In this document: positions 1,721 through 18,980 of the stretch, piece by piece
How the letters are laid out: every line of letters starts with the position of its first letter
Position numbering within the stretch: position 1 is the first letter of the stretch
Origin: an uncultured Bacteroidota bacterium
Lineage (GTDB): Bacteria > Bacteroidota > Bacteroidia > UKL13-3
DNA length: 46,073 nucleotides
Direction of reading: 5' to 3'
Assembly (NCBI GenBank): GCA_903910445.1
Contig: CAIVZR010000078.1
Span: forward strand, 1 to 46,073
Program-made: the position numbers and the translations under genes
The notes under the pieces: generated by a model
Seen by the model: only the letters and a program-made list of their open reading frames with translations
The model's database searches: none
What the model was told of the DNA's origin: nothing

Positions 1721-1752
1721 GAAGTTTCGTGAACGTTAAAAACGTGAAAAAG

Positions 1753-2116
1753 TGGAGCTGTCGGGAGTCGAACCCGAGTCCGAAATAGGAACTCAAATGT
1801 TTTCTACATGCTTAGCTGTGCTTAGTTGTCGGAAGATATCTGGCGCGCCGCGTACCGAATATCAACGTAGGTTTTATATAATTACGCAGCTATTAAAACC
1901 CACTTCGCTGATAATACCATGCTGAGTGAACCCACTATACAAGCCTCCGCATGACAGAAAGACTTAGTGAGTGCGGGCGGGTTAATCTATCCAGATTAAG
2001 CGGCCAATGCGTAGTTGTTGCCAACTAAAAGTTGAATGTATTGATTAAAGAGAACGCAAACAAATCTCTGCATGCTTACACCTGCGCTGCACTACCCGTC
2101 AAAACCGGTCAGCCCC
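1753..2116 (-). ncRNA. ssrA: Transfer-messenger RNA (tmRNA, 10Sa RNA)
   Basis: tmRNA rescues stalled ribosomes by trans-translation with SmpB. The mature ends pair as a tRNA-like acceptor stem: 5' GGGGCTG (2110-2116) with 3' CAGCTCC (1754-1760), followed by discriminator A at 1753; CCA is not encoded. The T arm reads GGGTTCGACTCCC. The mRNA-like part contains TAGTT followed by GGC AAC AAC TAC GCA TTG GCC GCT TAA (1996-2022), coding for the tag GNNYALAA and stop. The length is 364 bases, as expected for a one-piece tmRNA. Its partner gene smpB lies at 15301-15735. The 3' end is the likely attachment site of the adjacent integrative element. Confidence 0.96.
1996..2022 (-). other. tmRNA tag-peptide reading frame (GNNYALAA)
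   Basis: There are eight codons plus stop, with GGC as resume codon directly after a TAGTT motif that matches the position of TAGTC in E. coli. With the alanine loaded on tmRNA, the added tail would be A-GNNYALAA. The YALAA end is the protease degron. It appears one codon shorter than the GENNYALAA type I associate with this phylum. Confidence 0.8.
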
Positions 2117-5200: not shown

Positions 5201-6584
5201 AATCGGGCGATTTACGCATGCGACAAAACTGCGCCACCTTCGCAAGTGGGTTATAATCGAGTGCTCCTTGCATTTGCTCATAACGCTGATCCTTATAAAA
5301 ATTCAATGATTCAATTCGTGCAGCCTGGTCTTTGGTGCTCATCACCAAATCCATTTTCGGTCCATCAATTTTCCAATTCACCTCATCCACATACATCTCA
5401 ACACGGTGGTAAGAGTCGAACAGCGGGCTCGATTGCACGCCTTCTGTACCGCGGTAAAGGGAGAGTTTGCGCTCTGTTCTCAAGAAGCTAAACTTCATCT
5501 TCGGATGGTACAAAGAGTCTTTGTCGATGATTACTTTTAATCGAGAATCTTCGGCAGCAATTTTATCTTTTGAAATATAAAATTCCACTGCTTTCACTTG
5601 GCATCGCATCGTGTCATTATAAAAGAAGGAGAAGGTAGCTCGCTCATCAATGGTGCCCGTACCCGCAACTTGTTTGCCGTACATCCCAAAGCCACCTTTG
5701 TATTTGATGCCTTTTCCAAAATCTTCAATGAAGATATCATTACTATATGATTTAAATTTAGGATAACTTAAATTGGTGGGCTCGTTGGTAGAAATTAATT
5801 TTTCTGTCATCCTACCCGGCACCTTATTTATTTTATAATCTTTGTTGGTGAGGTAAACCGAGTCGATAGTAAACTCGTACTTCTCTGTACTTAAATTATA
5901 ATTTACAATATCAATCCATGCGCTATTGGTATCGACGCCTACTCTCAAAAATCCCATCTTGCCCCCTTTGCCAATCCATTGCTTGCGGTTGGGATAATAC
6001 ACCCCCGAAGTATGATAGATGGTGGTATTGTTACCATTGGCAAAACATTTCAAATCGGTATTGTCAAAAACGATGAAGGGTTCTCCTTCAAATTTAAGTT
6101 CGTAGTTCGGGCTCGTGCATTGCCAGCTCTTCGAGTTGCTTGAGTAAATGGTATTATCGTTGAAGAGGTTATAAGAAAAGTCAAGAAAATCTTTGAATGA
6201 TTTTTTATTATCGTTCAGCGTCTTCTCCGAAATTTTTTGCCAGTTCATGAAAATCGTCTCCCCCTTGTTTTGTTTGGAGTAGGCGGTGAGTGTTTTTAGC
6301 AAGAGCACGAACTCAGGATTCGCTTTCAATTTATTCACGAGCATCTTATTGCTGATGCGTACAATGAATCGTTTCTGATCTTCGGTGAATACCGTATTTT
6401 TCCATTCAACCAAAAAATCTTTGTAAGCATTTATCGCCTCCTCATTCTTTTCTTCTTTCATAAATTCTCCCAGCTCTTTGATATATACTCCTGTATCCTG
6501 GGAAAAACTTTTAAAGGTTTGCGAGAAGGAAGATACACTTGCAAAAAGCAGAAAAATAAATATTATACGTACTCTCATGATCAT
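2211..6584 (-). CDS. Very large secreted protein of unknown function (1457 aa)
   Basis: This is a 1457-residue protein with a clear signal peptide (RIIFIFLLFASVSSFSQ, cut near residue 22). After that there is no membrane segment, lipobox or visible T9SS sorting domain. The first 150 residues are charged and helical-looking. The rest is mostly beta-type sequence with recurring short blocks such as GxGxF, GAGSIDYL and GSGYYNF, as in repetitive beta-sheet surface or periplasmic proteins. I do not recognise a named family. It starts 3 bases after the prmA stop and is surely in the same operon. An alternative start at Met3 (6578) gives a more normal signal peptide. The gene is intact, with no frameshift. 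Confidence 0.85.
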   Translation of the reverse strand: MIMRVRIIFIFLLFASVSSFSQTFKSFSQDTGVYIKELGEFMKEEKNEEAINAYKDFLVEWKNTVFTEDQKRFIVRISNKMLVNKLKANPEFVLLLKTLTAYSKQNKGETIFMNWQKISEKTLNDNKKSFKDFLDFSYNLFNDNTIYSSNSKSWQCTSPNYELKFEGEPFIVFDNTDLKCFANGNNTTIYHTSGVYYPNRKQWIGKGGKMGFLRVGVDTNSAWIDIVNYNLSTEKYEFTIDSVYLTNKDYKINKVPGRMTEKLISTNEPTNLSYPKFKSYSNDIFIEDFGKGIKYKGGFGMYGKQVAGTGTIDERATFSFFYNDTMRCQVKAVEFYISKDKIAAEDSRLKVIIDKDSLYHPKMKFSFLRTERKLSLYRGTEGVQSSPLFDSYHRVEMYVDEVNWKIDGPKMDLVMSTKDQAARIESLNFYKDQRYEQMQGALDYNPLAKVAQFCRMRKSPDFTLEEFGAFMGVKEEYVLPFVLLMADKGFCNYDIDKKQVHIYNKVYDYVNAHNGVADYDILKMESIIAAHPNATMNFINYNLTVEGVPRLQFSDSQNVYVILDDQKLNIKKNRGMEFSGRVHAGRFDFYGAGFDFDYQNFLIKLTNVDSLKFSFPAKEKDELGREYLVRINTVLQNIYGTLYIDQANNKSSRINYPEYPIFKSDKGSNVFYDYPTTQGGSYKRERFYFKVDPFTIDSLDNFTREGLNFEGEFVSGGIVPDFRYQLTLQDDYSLGFKKHTPPGGYPLYKGKGTGDFEMSLSNAGFFGAGSIDYLTTHLTSSKFLLLLDSMNTVADDVVVTKSALFPSATTHSAYVEWRPYKDTMNIFQQKEPFAMYENKVSMIGNLIITPKGMGGAGTTSFDDAEISSKNFAFANHTFSSNVATFKIKSVEPNKFAFNATNVKAFVDMEKRYADFKANKEPANVELPYNMYRSTLSDMTWKIDEKKIILNTGKTQKPANAVFISTLYEQDSLNFMSATALFDLKTYVLTCSKVPYIYVADSKIIPDSNKVVINQNAVMNTLYKCLLKTDTVNNYHELYNCSINILGRRSMTGSGYYNFTDKLKNKQVVYFGDIRVNNDKQTTAKAVIADTSAFVINRHFDFKGEILLTGVKKELNFNGFVLPLHEAPPRSVWFRFNDGINQDSVTLVIDDPIDADKNPLSIGFNVANDSTGMYTSFFSRRHAYSDDMILIARSGKMFYDERLGEFKVGDAKKLRGKSYQGSVVTFNEPQQKITGEGKINFNANGDKFKINAAGIITNKLADSTYNLDVIALFDFLLPKEALEMMADSIYNTSRDLPDLANDRYVLKVGLGELAEEKNYGEVIKKLENDNTVTLLDEFQKTLMFTDLKMLWKPQNRAFVAIGGLGINSIGKKEIAKRLFGKVQITKKRSGDIIGIYFETNADTWYYFNFKGKTLSVLSSDESFNKAIKDNIAKISDETYKLQIANLRDKTLFLKFLEY

Positions 6585-6587
6585 TTT

Positions 6588-7445
6588 TTACTGTTGAATA
6601 AATACGGCAGCACACCAGTTATTTTTAGTCTTCGATTTTACGAATTTCATTCCATACTTCTCCGCCTCATTTCGTAAATCTTGTAAATCGGTTTCGTAAA
6701 AACCACTGATTTGGATAACGGTTCCAGACTGAGATATATTGTGGTACATGCCCAGATTTTCGAGGTTATAATTTTTGGTGATATTACTCAAGATGATGCG
6801 ATGCTGATAAGGCAACCATTCTTGAAGAAATTCTTCTTCTGCCAATACTTTCACATCACCATACACCACCGAGGCATGCGACATATTATTGAGTTCAAAA
6901 TTTTCCTGCGTATTTTCATAACACCATTCATCGTAGTCGATGGCCATGGTATACGCAGCGCCCAGCTGTTCGCCCAGGATGGCCAATACGCCAGTGCCAC
7001 AGCCCATATCCAAGCAAGCAGCGCCATTGAAATCGTGTTCCAGCATCAGTTCCATCATAAGCTGGGTGGTTTCATGGTGCCCAGTACCAAAACTCATTTT
7101 GGGTTGTATAATGATTTGATGTTTGAATCCTTCGCGGGGTGCATGAAAGGCAGCGCGTACAAATATTTCCTCCCCAATGATGATGGGCTCGAAGCTATCT
7201 TCCCATTGCTGATTCCAGTTGATATTATTTTCAATATCCTTCACGCCCAATAATTTCGCGCTGTAGCAGGTGATGAGTTCATGAATCTCTTCTTTGGCTT
7301 GCTCATAGTGGCTTGTAAGTGCATAGGCCATGAGGGAATCTTCTTCTTGGGTGAAATTATCGAAATGCAATTCACTCAGTTCAGCCACGAGCAGTTCTTG
7401 TATTTCTTGAGATGCTTCAATGCTTAGTTCGGTATAATGATCCAT
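6588..7445 (-). CDS. prmA: Ribosomal protein L11 methyltransferase
   Basis: PrmA trimethylates ribosomal protein L11 using S-adenosylmethionine in the cytoplasm. At 285 residues the length is normal. Family signs: the SFGTGHHETT motif (residues 118-127), the SAM-binding glycine motif DMGCGTG (146-152) with an acidic Asp at the end of the next strand (AIDYDE, about 170), and the post-motif SNITKN (220-225), equivalent to the NIxxN substrate/SAM loop. The N-terminal 100 residues correspond to the L11-recognition domain and are less conserved. It follows a small membrane-protein gene by 16 bases and precedes the 1457-aa gene by 3 bases, so the three look like one transcript. Confidence 0.93.
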   Translation of the reverse strand: MDHYTELSIEASQEIQELLVAELSELHFDNFTQEEDSLMAYALTSHYEQAKEEIHELITCYSAKLLGVKDIENNINWNQQWEDSFEPIIIGEEIFVRAAFHAPREGFKHQIIIQPKMSFGTGHHETTQLMMELMLEHDFNGAACLDMGCGTGVLAILGEQLGAAYTMAIDYDEWCYENTQENFELNNMSHASVVYGDVKVLAEEEFLQEWLPYQHRIILSNITKNYNLENLGMYHNISQSGTVIQISGFYETDLQDLRNEAEKYGMKFVKSKTKNNWCAAVFIQQ

Positions 7446-7461
7446 GGTGTTTTTTTAATGA

Positions 7462-7812
7462 TTAATTTGTTTCTAAAGTTTTGGGTTTGATAAAATAGTC
7501 GGAAACATAAAACCAGATGATGGCTGTTAATCCGGCAAAAAACAGGTATTTGGCATCGCCACGAAGGGAATCCTGCCCGATAAATTCACCAAGCATCCAG
7601 AGACTATTGGCCGAAATCCAGAAGCAAACAGCAATATTATGATACATTTCCTTTCGGTGTTGCCTGGTAATGAAGGTGATAAAGATGGCTAGGCTAATTG
7701 TGGGGATGATCATGGCCATCCCAAGTACCTTCCATTCCAGGCACCAGCTGATGTCTTTCCCAAGCCAGAAGAGGATATGGAGGTTTTCCATTTTACGTGC
7801 GCGTTCAAACAT
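7462..7812 (-). CDS. Small integral membrane protein, unknown function
   Basis: A 116-residue protein with three to four hydrophobic segments (around GMAMIIPTISLAIFITFIT, NIAVCFWISANSLWML and YLFFAGLTAIIWFYV) and a charged tail. I do not recognise the family. The Met at residue 8 (7791, MENLHILFW) is an equally plausible start, because the first seven residues are charged and add nothing to a membrane topology. It is the first gene of the leftward run with prmA and is divergent from the DUF1573 gene at 7878. Confidence 0.7.
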   Translation of the reverse strand: MFERARKMENLHILFWLGKDISWCLEWKVLGMAMIIPTISLAIFITFITRQHRKEMYHNIAVCFWISANSLWMLGEFIGQDSLRGDAKYLFFAGLTAIIWFYVSDYFIKPKTLETN

Positions 7813-7877
7813 AATATTCTGAATTTTTGCTTTTTTTTTGGCAAAGATGTGTGTAAATTTACGGCCTGAAAAATTAA

Positions 7878-8264
7878 ATGCTTCGAATTATCATTTTCTT
7901 CTGTTTTTGTGTTGCAGGCGTATCGCGTTTGCAAGCCCAGGCGCATATGGCCATGGACAGCACCACCCATACTTTTGGGGAGGTGAAGCAGGGAGAGAAT
8001 CCAATTTACACTTTCATGGTAAAAAATACTGGCAACAGCCCGCTCATCATCAATAGTGTAGAGCCTTCGTGTGGCTGCGTAACGGCAAGCTATACTGGTG
8101 AGCCCATTCCTCCCGGAGGAAGTGGAGCCATTCAGTTGGTATTTGTAACCGAAACACATTTGGGGTTTCAGTTGCGTTCCACTACCATTAGCACCAATGC
8201 CGACAATGCCGAAACCGTGCTCTATATGAAAGGCACCGTGATTAAACGCAAAGGGCTTTTATAA
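7878..8264 (+). CDS. DUF1573 domain protein, exported
   Basis: 128 residues: a signal peptide (LRIIIFFCFCVAGVSRLQAQA) followed by one Ig-like DUF1573 domain. Family hallmarks are the opening HTFGEVKQGE, the FMVKNTGNSPLIIN strand, the motif EPSCGC (Cys65 and Cys67) and the later PGGSGAIQL. DUF1573 proteins are common in Bacteroidota, act outside the inner membrane and have no agreed function; they resemble ASH-type Ig modules. The gene stands alone, divergent from the 7812 gene, with a 313-base repeat-bearing gap behind it. Confidence 0.88.
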   Translation: MLRIIIFFCFCVAGVSRLQAQAHMAMDSTTHTFGEVKQGENPIYTFMVKNTGNSPLIINSVEPSCGCVTASYTGEPIPPGGSGAIQLVFVTETHLGFQLRSTTISTNADNAETVLYMKGTVIKRKGLL

Positions 8265-8578
8265 ATTCAATTTATTTTTTTGGGGTATTATTAATGGGTC
8301 GCTCCTATGGAGCTAAAAATATTATTGTTATAGAATCAATTTTCGCCCTGGATCTTTTCAAGAACCATTACGCTCCACCGCCGTTGTTGTGTGTTGTGCG
8401 CTGGGTGATGTGGCAGGACCACCAACAACTGGGCGTAAATGTTGCTTCGACCTAAAATGTTTTTTATCGATAGGTGATGAGGGTAAAGTCAAACGCATCT
8501 ATAAACTTATATTCACAAATACCAACAATTGCAAAGAAGCACATCTGCTTCGAATTGATTAAATTTGCATAACTAACG
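8265..8578. repeat. Intergenic region with dispersed-repeat fragments
   Basis: There is no gene here. 8291-8316 holds a short palindromic unit (GCTCC-TAT-GGAGC preceded by taatgggtc) of the family described at 14055-14990. About 8374-8441 is homologous, in inverted orientation, to 14337-14402 (shared words include cgccgttgttg and caccaacaactgggcgta). Confidence 0.65.
8560..8567 (+). promoter_or_regulatory. Candidate -7 box before the transglycosylase gene
   Basis: TAAATTTG matches the Bacteroidota TAnnTTTG box and lies 11 bases before the start codon at 8579. No matching -33 box was seen, so the call is tentative. Confidence 0.35.
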
Positions 8579-9799
8579 ATGTATAAAAGATATTTCCTAA
8601 TTTCCATTGCCTTTGTTGCCGTCATTATTGGTTTCTTATTTCTCAATGGCCGTTTAACTGAGAAAGATAAGTACCAGCAAGAGTTTGCCGACCGCTATCG
8701 GGTTTATGCAGTAACAGTGCCTACCCATCTCAACTTCTGCAATGAAAAGGTTCCCACCCACGATTTTGAAATCTTCGAACGCTTCGATCGGGAGCTTACC
8801 ATCAATACGTATTTTCAATCGCAAACAATACTCAATATTAAAAGAGGAAGCCGCTATTTCCCAATCATTGAACCCATTTTAAAGCGCAACGGAATCCCCG
8901 ACGATTTCAAGTATTTATGTATGGTTGAAAGTGGATTGAGCAATGTAACCTCACCAAGTAATGCGGTAGGTTTTTGGCAATTCATTGAAGAAACGGGTCG
9001 CCGATATGGTTTGCGCATCAATGAGGAGGTAGATGAGCGCTATGATATAGCAAAGAGCACCCAGGCTGCTTGTTTGTATTTCAAAGATGCTTATGCCGAA
9101 TTCAATAACTGGACTTTGGCTGCAGCGTCATATAATATGGGCATCAATGGAATCAAGGGCGCGTTGAACAAACAAGATGTGAATAGCTTCTACGATTTAT
9201 ATGTCAACTCCGAAACATCGCGTTATATCATGCGACTTTTGGCCATCAAAGAAATCTACGAACATCCTCGCGTGTATGGATATTATATTCCGCAGTTCCT
9301 GCGCTATCCTCCGGTGCCAGTGTATTCGGAGCAAATCACGGGGCCCATTGCCGACCTCATCGAATATGCCAAAGCACATAAGATTACGTATAAAACTTTC
9401 AAGACTTTGAACCCATGGCTTCGCAAAAATGAGTTGAAGAATAAGGACACCGATACCTATGTAATTTATTTCCCGCAGGAAGGAGCGGAGCATTTGGTAA
9501 GCGATTTTTATGGATATGACGAACCCAGCGATAGCACCGATATGTCTGTCGATGCAACAGAGCCCATCATTGTGAGAAGCGACTCCGCCTTGGCAAAGGT
9601 CAAGGCCCAGGATTCGATGGTTTATGTAGAAATTAATCATACCGTAGAACGCAAAGAAGACCTGAATAGCATTGCGATGAAGTATCATACCACCGTTCCT
9701 AAAATCATGATTTGGAACAACCTCGAATTCACCACCGTGAAAAAAGATCAAGTCCTCCGCATTTTAGTTCGCAAGGATGTGCTGCCTTTGGTGAAGTAA
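8579..9799 (+). CDS. MltD-like lytic murein transglycosylase with SLT and LysM-like domains
   Basis: This enzyme cleaves peptidoglycan glycan strands to 1,6-anhydro ends in the periplasm. 406 residues: an N-terminal membrane anchor/signal (residues 4-24), a goose-type/SLT catalytic domain (about 85-240) with catalytic Glu117 in CMVESGLSN, then SNAVGFWQF and AAASYNMG motifs typical of the MltD branch, and a C-terminal LysM-like segment (about 350-400: HTVERKEDLNSIAMKYHTT, then KIMIWNNL) for glycan binding. Length and order fit the single-LysM MltD proteins of Bacteroidota. It is transcribed alone. A decayed copy of its last 16 or so codons lies about 380 bases downstream, beyond a MITE-like repeat. 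Confidence 0.88.
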   Translation: MYKRYFLISIAFVAVIIGFLFLNGRLTEKDKYQQEFADRYRVYAVTVPTHLNFCNEKVPTHDFEIFERFDRELTINTYFQSQTILNIKRGSRYFPIIEPILKRNGIPDDFKYLCMVESGLSNVTSPSNAVGFWQFIEETGRRYGLRINEEVDERYDIAKSTQAACLYFKDAYAEFNNWTLAAASYNMGINGIKGALNKQDVNSFYDLYVNSETSRYIMRLLAIKEIYEHPRVYGYYIPQFLRYPPVPVYSEQITGPIADLIEYAKAHKITYKTFKTLNPWLRKNELKNKDTDTYVIYFPQEGAEHLVSDFYGYDEPSDSTDMSVDATEPIIVRSDSALAKVKAQDSMVYVEINHTVERKEDLNSIAMKYHTTVPKIMIWNNLEFTTVKKDQVLRILVRKDVLPLVK

Positions 9800-9846
9800 T
9801 TTCATTACGCTTCGGCATGCATTGTATTCCAGATTGAAGTCTTCAA

Positions 9847-10045
9847 CACCGCGGCCACTAGCACCTCTTCGACCTAATAACCCGGCGTCCGTCGTTGCGT
9901 CTCCGACCAACGACCTCATTAATCTTCGACCAACAATGTATTCTTAGCGGAAGTCAATTAAGGAAAGGAATATTCAAACAATAATACATTACAGTTCGAG
10001 AAGCTCGGAGCCGTTGGTCGGAGACGCAACGGCGGACAGAGCGTG
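9847..10045. repeat. MITE-like repeat with 28-bp inverted arms (copy 1)
   Basis: Arms at 9887-9914 and 10010-10037 are inverted repeats with 26 of 28 positions matching, enclosing about 95 AT-rich bases. Arm core: TTGCGTCTCCGACCAACG. The block is homologous, in the opposite orientation, to 27163-27335. It has no coding capacity, so it is a non-autonomous element or structural repeat. No transposase for it is seen in the window. Confidence 0.75.
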
Positions 10046-10106
10046 GGCAGGTCGAGAATTCTAGAGTGAGAAGCTATGATGGAAAAGGATGTTTTTGCCT
10101 TCTTAG

Positions 10107-10173
10107 ATTTTGAAAGATTAAGTGCTCCGTGTATTGGTTCGCAAGGATGCGTTGCTATTGGTGAAATACTCTG
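10107..10173 (+). pseudogene. Decayed duplicate of the 3' end of the transglycosylase gene
   Basis: 10130-10177 matches 9750-9797 at about four bases in five, and translates as VLRVLVRKDALLLVK against VLRILVRKDVLPLVK at the end of the intact enzyme. The weak match begins near 10107. Nothing else of the enzyme is present, so this is a tail fragment separated from the gene by the MITE-like repeat. The remaining parts of 9800-10275 hold no gene. Confidence 0.6.
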
Positions 10174-10240
10174 ATGCTATTCATATTTAACCTCCATTAT
10201 CTGCACTTTTCCCCGTTCCCTAATTACAGTTCATTTTCCT

Positions 10241-10248
10241 TACATTTG
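10241..10248 (+). promoter_or_regulatory. Candidate -7 box before the aminotransferase gene
   Basis: TACATTTG matches TAnnTTTG and lies 27 bases before the ATG at 10276. It falls inside the longer open frame that begins at 10174, which supports the shorter start. No clear -33 box. Confidence 0.4.
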
Positions 10249-10275
10249 CTGCGTTTCAATAGCCAAATTATATTA

Positions 10276-11469
10276 ATGGACAAACCAGCCAAACGAATTG
10301 AGGTACTTGAAGAATCACAAACCATTGCTATGGCTAAGGCCTCCAGGCAATTAAAAGCTCAAGGCTTCGATGTGGTTAACCTCAGTTTCGGTGAACCCGA
10401 CTTTAAAACTCCCGAACATATACGCGACGCCGCCAAGAAATTCCTCGATGGAGGCTACGTATATTATACTCCTGTAGCCGGTATCCCGGAATTACGAAAA
10501 GCCATCAGCGAAAAGTTCCAGCGCGAGAATAATCTCAACATCCTTCCCGAACAAATTGTAGTCTCCACAGGTGCCAAGCACTCTCTCATGAACCTCATTT
10601 TGGTTTTGGTAGAAAAAGGAGATGAGGTGATTATCCCAACACCATACTGGGTAAGCTATAGCGAAATGGTGAAACTGGCAGAGGGCACTTCTGTTTATGT
10701 TACAGGTGTTGAAGCCAACGACTTTAAAATCACTCCCGAACAACTCGAAAATTCCATCACAGATAAATCAAGGGTCTTCCTTTTTTCTTCTCCATGCAAT
10801 CCAACGGGTAGTGTTTACTCCAAAGAAGAATTACATGCACTCGCGAAGGTGCTTGCCAAATACCCTCGAATATATGTTGTTGCCGATGAAATTTATGAGC
10901 ATATCAATTTCAATGGCCCACACCAATCTATCGCACAGTTCGAAGAACTGAAAGATCGTGTGGTCGTGGTGAATGGTGTTTCTAAAGCATTTGCGATGAC
11001 AGGCTGGCGCCTCGGCTATATCGGAGCCCCCGCCTGGATTGCCGCGGCTTGCGATAAATTACAAAGTCAGTTTACCAGTGGCACCAACGCCATCTCACAG
11101 CATGCTGCCATTGCCGCCCTCAATAGCCCGATGGAATCGACCAAGGAAATGTGTGAAATATTCCGCGGCCGCCGTGATGTCGTATTCGAAAGAATCAAAA
11201 AAATTAAGGGATTTGAAACAAGAGAACCCCATGGTGCCTTCTATTTCTTCCCCAACGTATCCTATTATTTTGGGAAAAAGGCTGGCGATAAAATCATCAG
11301 CAACGGGGAGGAGCTCTGTAATTATTTGCTTCACGAAGCCCATGTAGCCATCGTTCCAGGCAGTGCCTTTGGTGCCGAAGGGTATGTGCGTATCAGCTAC
11401 GCCGCCAGCGAAGCCGATTTGCTAAAGGCAATGGATAGAATTGAAATGGCACTCAACAAACTACAATAA
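10276..11469 (+). CDS. Class I PLP-dependent aminotransferase (aspartate aminotransferase type)
   Basis: A cytoplasmic enzyme that moves amino groups between aspartate or a similar amino acid and 2-oxoglutarate. 397 residues. Key residues: Asn175 in SSPCNPTGS, Asp204 and Tyr207 in ADEIYEH, PLP Lys237 in NGVSKAFAMTGWR, Arg245, and a C-terminal Arg in YVRISYAAS that binds the substrate carboxylate. The pattern fits subgroup I-beta, the Thermus/Bacillus AspC-like type, but substrate choice cannot be read from sequence and a prephenate or kynurenine role is possible. The frame is open to 10174, but the ATG at 10276 gives the normal family start (MDKPAKRIEVLEES) and follows a TACATTTG box. A sugar-kinase gene follows 19 bases later, probably co-transcribed. 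Confidence 0.9.
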   Translation: MDKPAKRIEVLEESQTIAMAKASRQLKAQGFDVVNLSFGEPDFKTPEHIRDAAKKFLDGGYVYYTPVAGIPELRKAISEKFQRENNLNILPEQIVVSTGAKHSLMNLILVLVEKGDEVIIPTPYWVSYSEMVKLAEGTSVYVTGVEANDFKITPEQLENSITDKSRVFLFSSPCNPTGSVYSKEELHALAKVLAKYPRIYVVADEIYEHINFNGPHQSIAQFEELKDRVVVVNGVSKAFAMTGWRLGYIGAPAWIAAACDKLQSQFTSGTNAISQHAAIAALNSPMESTKEMCEIFRGRRDVVFERIKKIKGFETREPHGAFYFFPNVSYYFGKKAGDKIISNGEELCNYLLHEAHVAIVPGSAFGAEGYVRISYAASEADLLKAMDRIEMALNKLQ

Positions 11470-11488
11470 TTTCATCGCGCGATTGGCA

Positions 11489-12460
11489 ATGTTTGATATC
11501 GAAAAAATAAAAAATCAGAAAATCATCATCGTGGGCGATGTCATGCTCGATGCGTATATCTTCGGAAACGTCGATCGCATATCGCCCGAAGCCCCCGTGC
11601 CTGTGGTGGCGCAGCGCTCCCAGGAATTCCGACTTGGTGGAGCCGCCAATGTAGCACTCAATCTCAAAGCCATGGGAGCAACACCGCTTTTGTTTGGGGT
11701 GTCAGGCAACGACGATGATGCCATAATATTAAAAGCCGAACTCGAAAAAAATAAAATCGCTTCGAACTTTATCATCGAAGAACCACAACGTCCTACCACC
11801 GTTAAAACGCGAATCATTGGCAATAATCATCAGTTGCTGCGCGTAGATAAGGAGGTGACATCGAGTATACTTTCATCTACAGAAAATGAATTGCTGGTGC
11901 TTTTGAAATTGCATATCAAAGATGCGAAGGCACTCATCTTCGAAGATTACGAAAAGGGTTTATTGCAGGAGTCATTCATACAAGCCATCACACAATTATG
12001 TATCGCACACGAAGTGCCGGTGATTGTCGACCCAAAGAAAAATAATTTCATGGCATACTCCCATGCCACCCTCTTCAAACCCAATTTGAAAGAGATACGC
12101 GAAGGTCTCAAACTCAACCGTCTCGATACTTTGGAGGAGATTGAATCTGCGGCTCGTCAGCTCATTCAGCAAATGAATTTGAAATATGTGATGGTCACGC
12201 TAAGCGATCGTGGCGTGATGATTTGTGATGCACAGCATACCCATCATATCCCTGCACATATTCGCAAGATCGCCGATGTATCGGGCGCTGGTGATACCGT
12301 GGTAAGTATCGCAGCACTCTGTATGGCGCAGCAGTTAGCACCCGCAAGCATCGCAGCACTCAGCAACCTGGCTGGAGGATTGGTATGCGAAGAAGTAGGC
12401 GTCGTGCCATTGAATAAAGAGCACTTCTTTGCCGAAATAAAACGACTGGGATTGGAATAG
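11489..12460 (+). CDS. PfkB-family kinase, D-glycero-beta-D-manno-heptose-7-phosphate kinase (HldA/RfaE domain I) type
   Basis: Probably phosphorylates heptose 7-phosphate at C1 for ADP-heptose and LPS inner-core synthesis. 323 residues. RfaE-type start: IIIVGDVMLDAYIFGNVDRI followed by SPEAPVPVV; LGGAANVALNLKAMG is the PfkB glycine motif; DVSGAGDTV holds catalytic Asp269; DPKKNN is also typical. The nucleotidyltransferase domain found in bifunctional HldE is absent, so the adenylyltransferase must be encoded elsewhere. The frame overlaps the previous gene if started at 11441, but the Met at 11489 gives the family N-terminus. It follows the aminotransferase in the same direction and faces the UMF1 gene. 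Confidence 0.87.
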   Translation: MFDIEKIKNQKIIIVGDVMLDAYIFGNVDRISPEAPVPVVAQRSQEFRLGGAANVALNLKAMGATPLLFGVSGNDDDAIILKAELEKNKIASNFIIEEPQRPTTVKTRIIGNNHQLLRVDKEVTSSILSSTENELLVLLKLHIKDAKALIFEDYEKGLLQESFIQAITQLCIAHEVPVIVDPKKNNFMAYSHATLFKPNLKEIREGLKLNRLDTLEEIESAARQLIQQMNLKYVMVTLSDRGVMICDAQHTHHIPAHIRKIADVSGAGDTVVSIAALCMAQQLAPASIAALSNLAGGLVCEEVGVVPLNKEHFFAEIKRLGLE

Positions 12461-12509
12461 GAATTGGTGAATCTTTTGGTAAAGATTACATCAATTCATC
12501 TTAGAATAT

Positions 12510-13841
12510 TTACGCTTCTATCTTCTCAATTTTTACTCTTGCATAATAATACAAGGCAATTAAAAAGCATGCACTGTAACCTAAAATCGCATTTCGTAAA
12601 CTACCCGTCATCGTGATGATGAGTCCGGTACTCAAAGTGCCAATCGTGATGGCTGCTTTTTCGGTAACATCTAAGAAACTATAAAACGAAGAGAGCTCAT
12701 CTTCCTGAATAGGAATGAGCTTGCTAAAGGTAGAGCGATTCAACGATTGCAAGGCTCCCATTACGAGTCCTACAAAAGAGGCAACAATGAAAAACGGAAG
12801 CTTCTCAGTCACCATATAGGCTGCAATACATACAAAAATCCAAATGATAACCGCAATGCAAATAGCTTTGATATTTCCAATTTTCATACTAATGCGAGAA
12901 AATAAAATGGCGCCAATCGTACCTACAAATTGTAATAATAATACCATCATAATGGTTTCACTATCTTCCAAATGAATAACATCTTTGGCAAATAAAACCG
13001 CGATATACATGATGGTTTGTAAAGCCATTGCACAAAAGAAAAATCCAATCAAGAACCTACGGGTATTGGGCAAATGACGAACACTATTATAAGCAATTTT
13101 CAATTTCTCCATGCCCGCTTTAAAATAATTAATTCCTTTATCGGTGCCAACAGGCTCTATGGGCAAGGCATTGAAGGTAAGTTGTGCAAAGCCTACCCAC
13201 CAAACAGCAACCATGGCAAAGGAAAGTTGACAAGCTACAGTAGTTGGATGTTCGAAGCCACCCAGTCCAAACCAGGCAGGGTTTTTAATCATCAATAAAT
13301 TAACGATCAATAAAATCACACTTCCTAAATAACCATAGGCATAACCACGTGCACTCACTTTATCATAATTCTCTTCAGTGGTTACCAAGGGAAGAAAAGA
13401 GTTATAGTAGATGATACTTCCATTGTATCCAATCATTCCTAAAATAATTCCAACAACACCAATCCAATAGTTATCCGCATCAAAAAACATCAATCCAAAA
13501 CTCGCGAAGGAGCCCAGGTAACAGAAAATTTTCATCATGCGTTTCTTCAAACCTTCAGCATCGGCAATACCTGATAATAAAGGGCTAAGTACCATGAGAA
13601 TACAAAAGGCTAGTGCTAAGGCATAGCTGTATAAGGCATTGCTTTCAATATCCAATCCCATAATATTCACATATACTTCTTTGGCATCGGCGGTGGCGCC
13701 CGCGAGTTTGCGCGATACATTTGCAAAAAAAGTAGGAAAGATGGCAGCAGTAATTACGAGGGCAAAGGCAGAGTTGGCCCAATCGTACATGGCCCATCGG
13801 TTAATGAGTTTCTTACTATTGAAAGGTACTTTATATTCCAT
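12510..13841 (-). CDS. MFS transporter, UMF1 (Atg22-like) family
   Basis: A 443-residue inner-membrane protein with about twelve hydrophobic segments. The N-terminal signature NRWAMYDWANSAFALV plus ITAAIFPTFF is diagnostic for the UMF1/Atg22-like branch of the major facilitator superfamily. Other family features are LSPLLSGIADAEGLKKR (the loop 2-3 motif) and a second-half repeat around GALQSLNRSTFSKLIP. In yeast Atg22 exports amino acids from the vacuole; the bacterial substrate is unknown. It is a single gene convergent with the heptose kinase, with a 49-base gap. Upstream lies the 1.46-kb repeat region. Confidence 0.88.
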   Translation of the reverse strand: MEYKVPFNSKKLINRWAMYDWANSAFALVITAAIFPTFFANVSRKLAGATADAKEVYVNIMGLDIESNALYSYALALAFCILMVLSPLLSGIADAEGLKKRMMKIFCYLGSFASFGLMFFDADNYWIGVVGIILGMIGYNGSIIYYNSFLPLVTTEENYDKVSARGYAYGYLGSVILLIVNLLMIKNPAWFGLGGFEHPTTVACQLSFAMVAVWWVGFAQLTFNALPIEPVGTDKGINYFKAGMEKLKIAYNSVRHLPNTRRFLIGFFFCAMALQTIMYIAVLFAKDVIHLEDSETIMMVLLLQFVGTIGAILFSRISMKIGNIKAICIAVIIWIFVCIAAYMVTEKLPFFIVASFVGLVMGALQSLNRSTFSKLIPIQEDELSSFYSFLDVTEKAAITIGTLSTGLIITMTGSLRNAILGYSACFLIALYYYARVKIEKIEA

Positions 13842-13960
13842 GATGGTGGTGAGAGACTAATAAAGCAAAGAAAGGGAAAATTATGAGAATAGGAAATTTT
13901 CAAGGGAATGAGCTTTGGTTAGCGTGAGCATTGGTTTGAATGGTGGGCACGAGAAATAAT

Positions 13961-14370
13961 TTTCATTCTATGTTCGCCGCAGTTGGTGTTGTGTTTGAGC
14001 CTTTGCGGATGCCTCACCAACGGCCTAAAAAAAATAATTTCAATGTTTTGTCTTTTAACGGGTCGCACCTACGGTGCTTAATACAAGGTGCGGTGTAATT
14101 GTTGCTACTAACAGGTCGCCCTTCTAGGGCTTAATACAAGAACAAATTCTAATTCTAATTTTTTCTAAATGTGTGGGATATAAAATTCATAAGAGTAAAA
14201 ACTCCTATAAAATCCGAATACAATCTATCTGTTTCATTGTATTAAGACCCAGCGGGTCGTCCCGTTAATAGCAAAAATTCAATATCCATAATTTAGCCCC
14301 AGCGGGGCGTCCCGTTAATAAATTTTATTTCAGAACATAATCTACGCCCAGTTGTTGGTGACCTTCCACA
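13961..14370. repeat. Long direct repeat, copy 1
   Basis: About 400 bases that recur as 14679-15037. Long identical stretches include the segment from ttttctaaatgtgtggga to ccgaatacaatctat. It contains four short palindromic units (14055-14086, 14110-14139, 14236-14269, 14291-14320) and a CTAATT microsatellite (two units here, three in copy 2). No open frame of note; no transposase. Confidence 0.85.
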
Positions 14371-14678
14371 CAGCCATACACACAACACGCAACAACGGCG
14401 GCGAGGGGATTTGTACAGGAAGAAATGCATTCAAACGTTCTTATGGAACGTCGGTCGGGGGGCATTGTTTTCTACCCACCAGATGTTCCGAAGGAACATA
14501 ATACAGCATCCTCCATAAATCAATTTTCAAATAATAATTTCCTCTTGTATTATGTCCCAATAGGGACATTTGGTGGGTAGCACATTATTGCCCCCTGTAT
14601 TGACGTGCCGTAGGTACGTTTGAATGTATTGCTTTTGATGAATATGAAATCATAATTTAATCTTGTATTCAAAAAAAA
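14371..14678. repeat. Inverted-repeat core between the two long repeats
   Basis: The left half (14425-14500) and right half (14551-14635) are imperfect inverted repeats sharing cattcaaacg, gggggca and ctacccacca words. Four palindromes are placed symmetrically: 14435-14451, 14484-14498, 14552-14569 and 14603-14619. No coding potential seen. Confidence 0.7.
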
Positions 14679-15037
14679 TTCATTCTATGTTCGCCGCAGT
14701 TGGTGTTGCGTTTGAGCCTTTGCACCTGCCTCACCAACGGCAAAAAAATTATTTCAATATATTGTCTTTTAACGGGTCGCACCTACGGCGCTTAATACAA
14801 GATGCGGTGTAATGCATGCTACTAAAAGTTCGCCCTTCTAGGGCTTAATACAAATACAAATTCTAATTCTAATTCTAATTTTTTCTAAATGTGTGGGATA
14901 TAAAATTCATAAGAGTAAAAACTCCTATAAAATCCGAATACAATCTATATGTTTCATTGTATTAAGACCCAGCGGGCCGTCCCGTTAATAATTTTTATTC
15001 AGAAAATAATATACGCTCAGTTGTTGGTGACCTTTCA
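14679..15037. repeat. Long direct repeat, copy 2
   Basis: Second copy of 13961-14370, lacking about 50 bases that hold one complete palindromic unit (14291-14320 in copy 1). The missing segment ends at a repeated gtcccgttaata word, as expected from recombination between unit ends. Palindromes in this copy: 14769-14800, 14825-14852, 14956-14990. The rest of the gap, 15038-15300, shows no gene or clear signal. Confidence 0.85.
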
Positions 15038-15300
15038 CTCAACCTGGAAGCGATAAGCAAGGTGGCGATGGTGGACAGCCAGAATAGTTTTCTTTTTATG
15101 TACATGTTATTTTAATTTAGAGGGTGATAAAAATATCAGTGTACAAAGGACTTATACTATTCAACCGAAAGCATTACATAAAGAATAGAATTGATTACAT
15201 GATTCATACCTGAAGTCATGCAACACGATGATAAGTAAGCAGAAGGAATGAAGATATTTTGCTAACGAATAGATTTGTAGGAGCGTGAAGCATTTAATTC

Positions 15301-15735
15301 TTATTCTCCTCTTCTGTCAATCTCGCGCTTGGCATCTTTTAGTTTCAAGTCGTCGCGCTTATCATAAAGCTTTTTTCCCTTCGCTAAGGCTATTTCTAAT
15401 TTTGCTAAGCCTTTTTCACTAAAAAATATTTTAATGGGAACAATAGTATACCCTTTCTCTTGGGTTTTGTTAAGTAGTTTTTTTAGTTCCGTTTTTTTGA
15501 GAAGCAATTTGCGATCATGTACGGGCTCATGATTATTGATGCTTGCAAATTTCCATTCACTGATATGCACATTGCGCAAGAATAACTCTTCATTATGAAA
15601 AGAGCAGTAACCATCGGTGATATTGGCTTTGCCTGCACGAATTGATTTTATCTCACTTCCAGTCAATACAATCCCCGCCGAAAATCGATCGGTAATAAAA
15701 TACTCGTAACCTGCTCTTCTGTTTTCTATAATCAC
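15301..15735 (-). CDS. smpB: SsrA-binding protein SmpB
   Basis: SmpB binds tmRNA and places it in the empty A site of stalled ribosomes. 144 residues, normal length. Family features: N-terminal NRRAGYEYFITDRFSAGIVL followed by TGSEIKSIRAGKANI, the RNA-binding barrel core ELFLRNVHI, then HDRKLLLKK, and the basic C-terminal tail GKKLYDKRDDLKLKDAKREI, which enters the mRNA channel. It is a single gene between two repeat-rich or empty gaps, about 13 kb from its RNA partner ssrA. Confidence 0.95.
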   Translation of the reverse strand: MIIENRRAGYEYFITDRFSAGIVLTGSEIKSIRAGKANITDGYCSFHNEELFLRNVHISEWKFASINNHEPVHDRKLLLKKTELKKLLNKTQEKGYTIVPIKIFFSEKGLAKLEIALAKGKKLYDKRDDLKLKDAKREIDRRGE

Positions 15736-16255
15736 TATTTAAAATTTAAAATTATTTAGGAGAGCGTCTTTTCTATTAGGTTTTTCTACCCCATCTGACC
15801 ACTATTTATTTTTTTGAAAATAAAAAACCCTATAAAGCACGAACTCCACCAGTTCACAATCACCCCAAATGTAGGATGAAATAAAGGACAAAAATAGTGA
15901 AACTCAACGACAATTTCTTATGTTAACGGTTCTTGCAATTCGCCAAATTATGATATGTCAACACATTCAAACTACCATTCTAAAATATTACTAAGACTCC
16001 TTTTATAAAAAATCAATTGCCTGACTTTTAGTACTTTCAGGGCGCTAGCTCATTTTTTATTCCCCAACTGATTATTAATTGACTATAATGCCATTTATCA
16101 GGAGTTGTATAATCATTTTTAAGTACGGCAACTAATACATAAAAGCAATCAAATGCTTTTATGTAAGCGTGAAGTTGGATATTTTTTTAATTCATTTGTA
16201 ATACATAAAAATAAATACCTAATATATTAATAAACTTTTTGAATTATAAAAACAC
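15736..16255. other. Gene-free stretch upstream of the T9SS protein
   Basis: 520 AT-rich bases with no open frame. The only clear structure is the 12-bp inverted repeat at 16136-16165, described separately. A small palindrome (GAACT-ccacc-AGTTC, near 15840-15855) is also present. It probably carries the promoters of smpB (leftward) and the 16256 gene (rightward), but I cannot fix them. Confidence 0.5.
16136..16165. promoter_or_regulatory. Perfect 12-bp inverted repeat (hairpin or operator)
   Basis: TACATAAAAGCA (16136-16147) and TGCTTTTATGTA (16154-16165) flank a 6-base loop. It lies 90 bases before the start at 16256. It could be a leader hairpin, an operator or a terminator for distant transcription; no T tract follows directly. 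Confidence 0.5.
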
Positions 16256-17260
16256 ATGAAACACCTGTTTACTCTTCTTGCTTTTTTATTTCACGGCTTC
16301 ACCCCTTCATTGTTAAATGCACAGGGCATTTATGTAGCTTCGGGCACTACCTTCGAAGTTGCCACAGGTACTACATTTCATGTAGATGGATTAACTTTAA
16401 TTAATTCTGCTCCTTTTGATTTTAATGGTTTGACCGTTACAAAAAATGCAACACGTACCAATAATGCGGGAGCTTCTCCTCCTCCAGCGGCCGACAGGTA
16501 TTATTTATTTAACACCAATACCCCTTCCTTTAGTGGTACAGTGCAGGTAAATTATGAAGATGTTGAAGTAATAGGCCTGGTCGAAAGTTCATTGCAAGTT
16601 AATAACTATTCGGGAACAGGTACTGTATGGAATAATTATACCAGCACTACCAATGACGTGACCAATAATTATGTTTTAAGCACAACGCTGAGTGGGGTTA
16701 CCCTTCGCGAAATAGCCCTAGCCTCTTCGTCGGCACCCTTACCTGTGACATGGTTGAATTTCACAGCCACCAAACAAGGAGATAACGTGCTGCTTCATTG
16801 GAGCACTGCACAAGAAAAAAATAGCCTCGACTTCGTGATACAGCATAGCTTTGATGGGAGAAATTTTACTGATCTAAATACGCAGTCAGCAGCCGGAACC
16901 AGTAGTACTATTTTACACTATAATTATATGCACAACACCCCGATTTCGGGTTTCAATTTTTATCGCATACTCCAACGCGATTTCAATGGTTTAAGTTCCT
17001 ATAGTGTAGTGCGACAAATTAATTTTAGCAAAGAAAAAATGGCCCCAAAAGTGCAAATTGTTGAAAACCCGATACAAGGTAACGATTTGCAAATTGTGAT
17101 CCAAGGCGAGGAGGATATTTCAATATATAATATGGTAGGTCAATTATTTTTTGAGAAGCATTTTGATAAAGGAATACATTCTATTGACATGAGCCATTTT
17201 GAAATAGGCACTTACCTCTTACGAACCAATACTAACACCATTAAACTATTAAAATTATAA
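16256..17260 (+). CDS. Secreted protein with T9SS C-terminal sorting domain
   Basis: 334 residues. Signal peptide MKHLFTLLAFLFHGFTPSLL up to NAQG; then a short beta-rich region with repeated GTTFEVATGTTFHV words; a middle beta-sandwich segment starting PLPVTWLNFTATKQGDNVLL (about 162-250), common in Bacteroidota surface proteins; and a C-terminal type A T9SS sorting domain (about 265-334, with NPIQGN, SIYNMVGQ and the end GTYLLRTNTNTIKLLKL). It should be exported by Sec, then moved through the outer membrane by T9SS. The passenger function is unknown. The next gene starts 27 bases later in the same direction. Confidence 0.85.
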   Translation: MKHLFTLLAFLFHGFTPSLLNAQGIYVASGTTFEVATGTTFHVDGLTLINSAPFDFNGLTVTKNATRTNNAGASPPPAADRYYLFNTNTPSFSGTVQVNYEDVEVIGLVESSLQVNNYSGTGTVWNNYTSTTNDVTNNYVLSTTLSGVTLREIALASSSAPLPVTWLNFTATKQGDNVLLHWSTAQEKNSLDFVIQHSFDGRNFTDLNTQSAAGTSSTILHYNYMHNTPISGFNFYRILQRDFNGLSSYSVVRQINFSKEKMAPKVQIVENPIQGNDLQIVIQGEEDISIYNMVGQLFFEKHFDKGIHSIDMSHFEIGTYLLRTNTNTIKLLKL

Positions 17261-17287: not shown

Positions 17288-18913
17288 ATGAAAAAAATTA
17301 TTTTAAGTATTGGCCTACTGCTCTCAGTATATCTAATCCAAGCCCAAGTAGGTATTGGTACGGCCTCGCCCGCTACCTCCTCACAATTAGATGTAACCTC
17401 TACCACCAAAGGGTTTTTGCCCCCGAGAATGACCACTGCACAGAGAGATGCCATCTCAACGCCAGCCACGGGCTTGCAAATTTACAATACCGATAATAAA
17501 GCCATAGAAACATTTACCGGCACCACTGGCGAATGGCTTACTGTAGGTCAAGGGAAAGGTGCTATTGCTACCAATATATCAATAGGAGTGAATGCACTTT
17601 ATGCGAACACTACTGGGTTTGAGAATTCGGCTTTCGGTATTGAATCCCTTAAAAACAATACTAATGGATCTGTGAATACGGCTTTTGGCGCATATTCTCT
17701 TAATACAAACGTAAATGGAGCCAGAAACACAGCATTCGGTAGAAAGGCTTTGTATACTGCAAATGGGGCCTATGACAATACCGCTTTGGGCTATATAGCG
17801 TTACTAAGTAACAGCACCGGAAGCCATAATGTTGCAGTAGGTTCTGAAGCACTAGTTGCAAATACAACAGCAGAATATAATACAGCTGTTGGATCATTTT
17901 CATTGTGGACCAATACAACCGGAGGTGATAATACAGCAATTGGGTATTCTTCTTTAATTTTCAATCAAACGGGCTATCGCAATATCGCAGCTGGATTTGG
18001 CGCATTATACGCTAATACCACGGCTTCCTATAATGCTGCTTTTGGCGCACAATCGCTCTCAGCGAATACTACCGGCGAAAGAAATACTGCCATTGGTGCT
18101 GGAGCAATAGATTTTAATACAACCGGCAGTTATAATGCCGTATTAGGATTTTTAGCTGGCAGATATATTGGTGACGCTACCACATATAATACAGAAATTA
18201 ATAATGCTGTTTTAATCGGAGCCAATGCAATGCCATTAGCAGACCACGGTACCAATGAAATTGTAATCGGATACAATGCTGTTGGTAATGGAAGCAATAC
18301 CGTTCAGCTCGGTAACACCGCTATAACGAATGTGAAAACTAGTGGCACTGTCACTGTGGGAGCTGTTACTTATCCAAAAACCGATGGAACTGCGGGCCAG
18401 GTATTAACCACCAATGGCAGTGGAACACCTTCCTGGACCACCCCTAGCAGCACTGGCAACCACTACCTTGGCGAAGAATACCTTGGAGGTATTATTTTTA
18501 ATCTATTTACAACCAGCGATGGAATGCAACATGGTTTACTAGTTTCAAAAACGGAAACAACTGCTACATGGAGTGGCGCATCTTTAGTAGGTGCCGACAG
18601 AACAGAAGGTGGCGCCTATAATACGAATTTAATGCCCACAGGTGCAGGTACAGCAAGCACTTGGGTAGCAACACTTGGTGCAGGTTGGTACCTTCCATCT
18701 GTTGACGAATTAGTATTACTTTGGCATAATAGATATTATGTAAATAAAACAGCTAGAGCGATTAGTTCCACTTTGTTATCCTCTACGGCGGGCTATTGGA
18801 GTAGCACCGAGACTAGTGCGTCAAACGCTTTCTATTTATACTTCTACAACGGCGCCACAGACGCCAACGGCAAGACGACTACTTTTAGCGTGCGTGCCTT
18901 AAGGACTTTTTAA
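17288..18913 (+). CDS. Secreted repeat protein with DUF1566-like C-terminus (possible diversified surface ligand-binder)
   Basis: 541 residues. Signal peptide (1-20); an N-terminal segment (VGIGTASPATSSQLDVTSTT, then KGFLPPRMTTAQRDAI) common in Bacteroidota; about nine repeats of 23-24 residues (about 95-310) built on NTAxGxxSLxxNTTGxx, resembling the beta-roll head repeats of trimeric adhesins and tail fibres; a linker (GQVLTTNGSGTPSW); and a C-terminal DUF1566/Lcl-like domain (about 395-541) with WYLPSVDEL, GYWSSTETS and the ending VRALRTF. That fold is used in C-type-lectin-like and DGR-diversified proteins. Its last 40 codons have unusual codon use (see the variable-region entry). No T9SS sorting domain is seen. 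Confidence 0.82.
   Translation: MKKIILSIGLLLSVYLIQAQVGIGTASPATSSQLDVTSTTKGFLPPRMTTAQRDAISTPATGLQIYNTDNKAIETFTGTTGEWLTVGQGKGAIATNISIGVNALYANTTGFENSAFGIESLKNNTNGSVNTAFGAYSLNTNVNGARNTAFGRKALYTANGAYDNTALGYIALLSNSTGSHNVAVGSEALVANTTAEYNTAVGSFSLWTNTTGGDNTAIGYSSLIFNQTGYRNIAAGFGALYANTTASYNAAFGAQSLSANTTGERNTAIGAGAIDFNTTGSYNAVLGFLAGRYIGDATTYNTEINNAVLIGANAMPLADHGTNEIVIGYNAVGNGSNTVQLGNTAITNVKTSGTVTVGAVTYPKTDGTAGQVLTTNGSGTPSWTTPSSTGNHYLGEEYLGGIIFNLFTTSDGMQHGLLVSKTETTATWSGASLVGADRTEGGAYNTNLMPTGAGTASTWVATLGAGWYLPSVDELVLLWHNRYYVNKTARAISSTLLSSTAGYWSSTETSASNAFYLYFYNGATDANGKTTTFSVRALRTF
18790..18913 (+). other. Candidate variable region (DGR-like) at the 3' end of the repeat-protein gene
   Basis: From 18824 to 18871, 12 of 16 codons have the form NNC (aac, ttc, tac, ggc, gcc, gac), against 2 of the 16 codons at 18737-18784. 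The residues are mostly Asn, Tyr, Phe, Ala, Gly and Asp. This is what adenine-directed mutation of AAC-rich template codons would leave, and it sits exactly at the end of a DUF1566-like domain, the usual place. No template repeat or reverse transcriptase is visible in this window, so this is inference. Confidence 0.4.
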
Positions 18914-18980
18914 TAATTTTCTATTTAGTAATTACAAGGAAGCAATCAGTTTTTTTGGAGTGCATTGTTATGTACTAGGA

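Follow-up and report, generated by a model that had tools for sequence, protein, structure and literature searches.

The gene at 17,288-18,913 on the forward strand of the window, i.e. the whole stretch of 46,073 nucleotides that was analyzed, encodes a variable protein of 541 AA and is, with a probability of roughly 85 %, an orphaned and frozen target gene of a diversity-generating retroelement (DGR) with template-pattern ancestry and absent machinery. Its variable region (VR) was very probably made by a DGR. This machinery is gone from the assembly, and the gene is therefore classified here as a former DGR target and not as a DGR. The gene was delimited by its open reading frame (ORF) and by a syntenic ortholog in the sister species G002.

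Codon composition and comparison with foreign templates

A run of codons ending in C near the 3' end of the gene had been reported in a first-pass annotation made from the sequence alone, and its counts were reproduced. At 18,824-18,871, 12 of 16 codons are NNC, which is the maximum of the ORF, compared to 2 of 16 at 18,737-18,784. This is an excess over codon usage, as confirmed by synonymous resampling in which the amino acids were kept and the codon usage was taken from the first 495 codons of the ORF. The expected number of NNC codons at 18,824-18,871 was 3.7, and 12 were reached in 0 of 20,000 resamples. Resampling of the whole ORF gave 12 NNC codons anywhere in 2 of 3,000 resamples.

Relatives were collected by scanning genome contigs with an alignment of the C-terminal domain, and the best 80 loci among the matches listed were used. 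Five of these best 80 loci (L064, L066, L082, L092 and L114) contain complete DGRs on the Lcl_C domain, with the gene order variable protein, Avd, template repeat (TR) and reverse transcriptase (RT), and with RTs of the IGNLTSQ type. In the order given, 15/15, 21/21, 21/21, 23/24 and 9/12 of the mismatches between VR and TR are located at TR adenines, and 13, 13, 10, 12 and 8 of 16 codons in the VRs are NNC. The L064 RT has a 100 % match in G064, a genome from the window's own family, and the L064 TR has one extra codon. The complete DGR of L114 (6,008-8,830) is located on a contig labelled Myxococcales, which may be a transfer or misbinned, judging from its likeness to the DGRs of Bacteroidota. 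Several DGR-type RT matches, three of them with reported stops, were seen in G163, the genome of L092. Among the 80 viral loci taken, L317 combines the domain with matches to an RT (327 bits) and to Avd.

The relic variable region in the window spans 18,791-18,883 (forward strand) and is defined by 13 codons that are AAC or AAT in at least three of the five foreign TRs, starting at 18,791, 18,815, 18,824, 18,833, 18,839, 18,845, 18,848, 18,854, 18,860, 18,863, 18,866, 18,869 and 18,878. In the window, each of the 13 codons is NNY; 10 are NNC and 3 are still AAY. Compared to the best foreign template, the L066 TR, the identity is 0.81 at non-adenine sites and 0.53 at adenine sites, and 24 of 33 non-adenine third bases match, as in the complete DGRs. 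Divergence at adenines together with identity at the remaining sites of a cognate-type template, by which a former target can be recognized, is thus present in the window. The DGR origin proposed in the first-pass annotation is supported by the complete DGRs of the relatives and by the coincidence of their TR adenine codons with the NNY codons of the window.

Aligned identity to a foreign TR was determined for the window and 69 of the 80 loci, and 79 of the 80 loci were scored for a grouping by non-adenine identity, with L113 left out for its truncated domain. An identity of at least 0.70 was found for 33 loci, including all five complete DGRs, whereas 39 were below 0.65 and 7 in between. In the group below 0.65, no locus has an RT match above 100 bits or Avd within 3 kb, and two have a hairpin. 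Farther away, an Avd match is located about 8 kb from L065, and G148, the genome of L095, contains a DGR-type RT. The window, with a non-adenine identity of 0.81, falls into the DGR-like group of at least 0.70. Mismatches enriched at TR adenines are by themselves unspecific, since the gapless test was also significant in homologs that are not DGR-like, e.g. L121, L074, L095 and L106. DGR-like and other loci are told apart by the third bases and the non-adenine identity, not by the adenine excess.

Predicted fold of the variable protein

Residues 462-539 of the variable protein (18,671-18,904, forward strand) match the Pfam family Lcl_C (PF07603), which we take to be the former DUF1566, with an E-value of 6.8e-8 and 33.2 bits, 1.7 bits short of the gathering cutoff of 34.9. 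An AlphaFold2 model of the domain (18,428-18,910), built with 35 aligned domains as input, has a mean pLDDT of 91.4. Its best matches among solved structures are the C-terminal domain of Legionella Lcl (8q4e; Foldseek E-value 1.0e-8, VIA-align Z 15.5, rmsd 2.0 over 119 residues) and BACOVA_04982 from Bacteroides ovatus (4eps; VIA-align Z 14.5, rmsd 2.8 over 154 residues), which have their fold in common with the model. For the window domain, a C-type-lectin-like fold as in the C-terminal domain of Lcl is predicted. The DUF1566-like C-terminal domain named in the first-pass annotation agrees with both the match just under the cutoff and this prediction. The full Legionella Lcl adhesin differs from the window protein, which is not matched by the NCBIfam model adhesin_Lcl (12 bits, cutoff 500). 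According to PMC4159848, the 4eps structure was earlier compared with a DUF1566 DGR protein.

The middle of the protein had also been described as head-repeat-like. Such repeats are visible by eye in the translation, but in the DNA Tandem Repeats Finder did not report any array, nor did the protein match a head-repeat family. The ortholog in G002 has 346 AA, and much of the difference to the 541 AA in the window, seen over 17,288-18,343, is located in this middle part. The stalk length of the variable protein therefore seems to vary between the window and G002.

Gene neighborhood

The partner gene directly upstream (16,256-17,260, forward strand) encodes a protein of 334 AA whose C terminus is a T9SS sorting domain (Por_Secre_tail, PF18962, E-value 4.2e-6, 27.4 bits, cutoff 27). 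The order in the window is a gene that we presume to be smpB-like, the T9SS-tailed gene, the variable protein and glmS, and the T9SS gene and glmS flank the variable protein in both the window and G002. In G004, the smpB-like gene adjoins glmS with less than 30 bp between them, and both the T9SS gene and the variable protein are absent there. The smpB-like gene adjoins the T9SS gene in G001, where the contig ends; contigs of G001 break inside glmS and inside the T9SS gene, and the G003 contig breaks inside glmS. A tmRNA gene is encoded elsewhere in the window (1,750-2,116, reverse strand, Rfam RF00023, 132 bits).

Translations read by eye show a T9SS-tailed-looking gene upstream of the variable protein also in L064, in L082 and four times in L088. 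In the latter locus (6,170-16,352), from the isolate Flavobacteria bacterium BAL38, a T9SS-tailed-looking gene is paired with a variable-protein-like gene with WSS.E ends four times in tandem, and the pair ending at 10,492 has an identity of 0.99 to the L082 template at non-adenine sites. A search of the BAL38 genome for a DGR-type RT found none.

Comparison with the sister species

The domain is 88 % identical between the window and G002. Only 2 of 48 bases differ at 18,824-18,871, both at third positions, which is the opposite of hypervariation. At the 13 target codons, 26 of 26 first and second positions and 13 of 13 third positions are identical (39 bases), and 1 of the 40 consensus TR-adenine sites differs. 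The computations on 4-fold sites and on re-mutagenesis used a set of 14 codons including 18,791, which also shows 0 differences. Such identity would be very unlikely after independent re-mutagenesis in both lineages, with a chance of about 4e-14 for 28 sites under a simple model.

The fractions of 4-fold sites that differ from G002 are 25/126 in the T9SS gene, 57/165 in the variable protein and 137/217 in the flanking glmS. The lower divergence of the T9SS and variable protein pair compared to glmS suggests exchange or a later arrival. Silent change is also low at 18,734-18,883, unlike in the rest of the gene, with 4 of 49 third positions differing compared to 87 of 297 (p 0.0007), so that either constraint or a shared tract is needed to explain it. 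A recently shared tract may, besides long fixation, account for part of the identity between the window and G002. The sister comparison first suggested a simply conserved region unrelated to DGRs, and this reading was overturned by the comparison with the templates.

Region downstream of the variable region

Judging from its position in a codon comparison and flank listing, 18,890-18,910 (forward strand) is a putative, altered IMH-like 3' end of the VR, which reads VRALRTF in the window and VRGVRAF in G002, whereas several DGR loci have VRAVRAF. It is followed at 18,914-18,946 (forward strand) by a possible remnant of an AT-rich post-VR flank, which is only weakly similar to the flank of L066 (p 0.054 in the window and 0.028 in G002, from shuffling). 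In complete DGRs, the VR is followed by an AT-rich repeat and a hairpin, typically ACCGC-GAA-GCGGT. Within 90 nt past the stop codon, a hairpin is absent in the window and in G002 and, by the same criterion, present in five of five complete DGRs. By this criterion, a hairpin was found in 19 of the 33 DGR-like loci versus 13.5 % of random 90-mers, and CCGCGAAGCGG in 10 of the 33 flanks versus 0.15 % of 2,000 random 90-mers. For BPP-1, PMC3240598 reports that the post-VR hairpin is needed for efficient homing.

Search for the DGR machinery

The window's genome (G000) is a draft assembly of 3.43 Mb in 107 contigs with a completeness of 99.96 %. The absence of a retroelement noticed in the window by the first-pass annotation holds for the whole assembly, as neither an RVT_1 match nor a second DNA copy of 18,700-18,960 was found there; the best non-self match of this segment has 20 bases and an E-value of 0.12. 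As a positive control, the VRs of all five cis-acting DGRs retrieved their own TR at E-values of at most 2.8e-24, rescaled to the size of the window's genome. The L064 TR as query also found nothing in the window's genome; this is a weak test, since it likewise missed the VR of the window. The DGR RT of L064 gave no match in G000 to G004, and the Avd HMM, searched against the window and the fetched loci, gave none in the window. None of the four parts of an intact DGR, i.e. an RT, a TR, an Avd gene beside the target and a post-VR hairpin, is thus found for the window gene. A genome search for a template and a DGR RT had been proposed as a check; both negative results count against activity of the system, but not against its origin. 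The proposed RT motif QxxxSP has to be corrected, as the motif in the relatives' DGR RTs is IGxxxSQ.

Other RTs in the genomes examined have xGxxTSP-like motifs and are presumably retron-like or group-II-like. RTs of nearby genomes were considered as DGRs and rejected, since among 12 RT stretches scanned IGxxxSQ occurs only in L055 (G026). From its ORFs, this RT looks prophage-borne. Its target is of another kind, and a template for Lcl_C was not found at L055.

DGR-like loci without a reverse transcriptase

Of the 33 DGR-like loci among the best 80, five have a complete DGR, and the sequence fetched for the other 28 contains no RT. L063, counted among the 33, is the copy of the window gene in G002. 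Among the 28 RT-less loci, 24 have at least 3 kb of downstream sequence, 7 keep Avd within 3 kb and 14 keep the hairpin. A protein search for DGR RTs in 22 genomes, representing 24 of the 28 loci, gave two weak matches, in G132 and G134, whereas strong matches were found in four of four genomes with complete DGRs as positive control. The match in G132 is a piece of 143 AA that also fits the DGR RT model with 59 bits and, on this similarity, may be a DGR fragment. RVT_1 matches were found in 6 of the 22 genomes, and the readable motifs are of the xGxxxSP kind; the exceptions are a partial ORF in G134 that does not allow a judgement and, in G118, an RT-like ORF that has neither of the two motifs.

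Orphaning of DGR targets may therefore be common, although most of these loci stem from MAGs of unstated completeness, which makes the numbers a lead and not a census. Among the papers listed by literature searches, none dealt with relics in Bacteroidota that consist of a VR only, which is no proof of absence.

Discussion

The observations fit a history in which mutagenic retrohoming would have written the ancestral gene from a template rich in AAC, similar to those in the complete DGRs of the relatives. The gene and its T9SS-tailed partner are now located beside glmS, and Avd, TR and RT would have been lost in place or never co-transferred. The hairpin would have been lost as well, and change in the VR would have ended before the split of the window's and the sister's copies. 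The C-type-lectin domain was probably retained as a fixed binder, which would be displayed on the stalk.

The first-pass annotation had left two options, a relic or diversification in trans by a remote template and RT, and the relic is the one that is supported. Ongoing diversification by a DGR elsewhere in the genome is improbable. Remote VRs are known according to PMC8144416, and with a draft of 107 contigs, and with the assemblies of two of four congeners breaking at the locus, a DGR element may be unassembled or unbinned. On the other hand, no RVT_1 match was found at 99.96 % completeness, the DGR RT search was negative in all of G000 to G004, no TR was found in G000, the window has no Avd match and no hairpin, the IMH-like end is altered, and the target codons are identical in two species. 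Even less probable, and difficult to square with the NNY state of the 13 target codons, is that the gene was never a DGR target. It would then encode an Lcl_C domain of the usual kind, and the codons ending in C would have accumulated locally through codon bias or a foreign source. The extreme conservation between the window and G002, silent sites included, would fit such a domain. So would the four of 79 scored loci in the middle and low groups that have 10 or 11 NNC codons of 16 with other tested DGR marks negative, among them L075, L103 and L115; others have 8-9. However, the C-ending codons coincide with AAC or AAT codons of the foreign TRs, 24 of 33 non-adenine third bases match the L066 TR, and 12 NNC codons were reached in only 2 of 3,000 whole-ORF resamples.

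For the orphaned target, the route is a separate question. At a little under even odds, the variable protein and its T9SS partner were acquired jointly and already diversified, with Avd, TR and RT left behind, instead of the system decaying in place. The pair is missing between the adjoining smpB-like gene and glmS of G004, its 4-fold divergence from G002 is below that of glmS, and four such pairs occur in tandem in the isolate BAL38. However, a donor was not found, Avd is retained without an RT at seven other DGR-like loci, which implies that decay in place also occurs, and the low divergence can also be explained by exchange between lineages after a single arrival.

Compared to known systems, the window resembles the DUF1566 (Lcl_C) DGRs of PMC4159848, where this is the commonest annotated domain with 47 variable proteins, and the five complete DGRs described here in its C-terminal domain, the placing of NNY codons and the adenine pattern relative to a template. 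Unlike these, it lacks an RT, a TR, an Avd gene and the hairpin, and two species share its fixed VR. The partial DGRs of the DUSEL4 Nanoarchaeota are described in PMC4372165 as target genes with VR and cis elements but without an RT, and are termed fossils or remote targets. Both they and the window gene show signs of adenine mutagenesis without an adjacent RT. According to the same source, however, DUSEL4 hosts other DGRs and keeps the cis elements, whereas no RT was found in the window's genome, the hairpin after the VR is absent, and a second species shows the frozen VR.

These results have implications beyond a single gene. A DGR target can be recognized without its retroelement by an overlay on the templates of relatives, and it can be locked after diversification. 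As a tentative and rather doubtful generalization, orphaned modules consisting of a T9SS partner and a lectin-type variable protein, often with Avd or the hairpin and without an RT, could be a common and horizontally moving class in Bacteroidota, comprising pre-diversified binders that are inherited and then fixed, or that are rewritten only when the RT of a mobile element passes. If this were true, RT-first surveys would be blind to such modules; a large survey of this kind, with repeats sought within 20 kb, itself states that remote targets would escape detection (PMC8144416). Should closed genomes show the same ratio of 28 RT-less to 5 complete loci, it would become directly testable what happens to diversified binders once their retroelement is lost.
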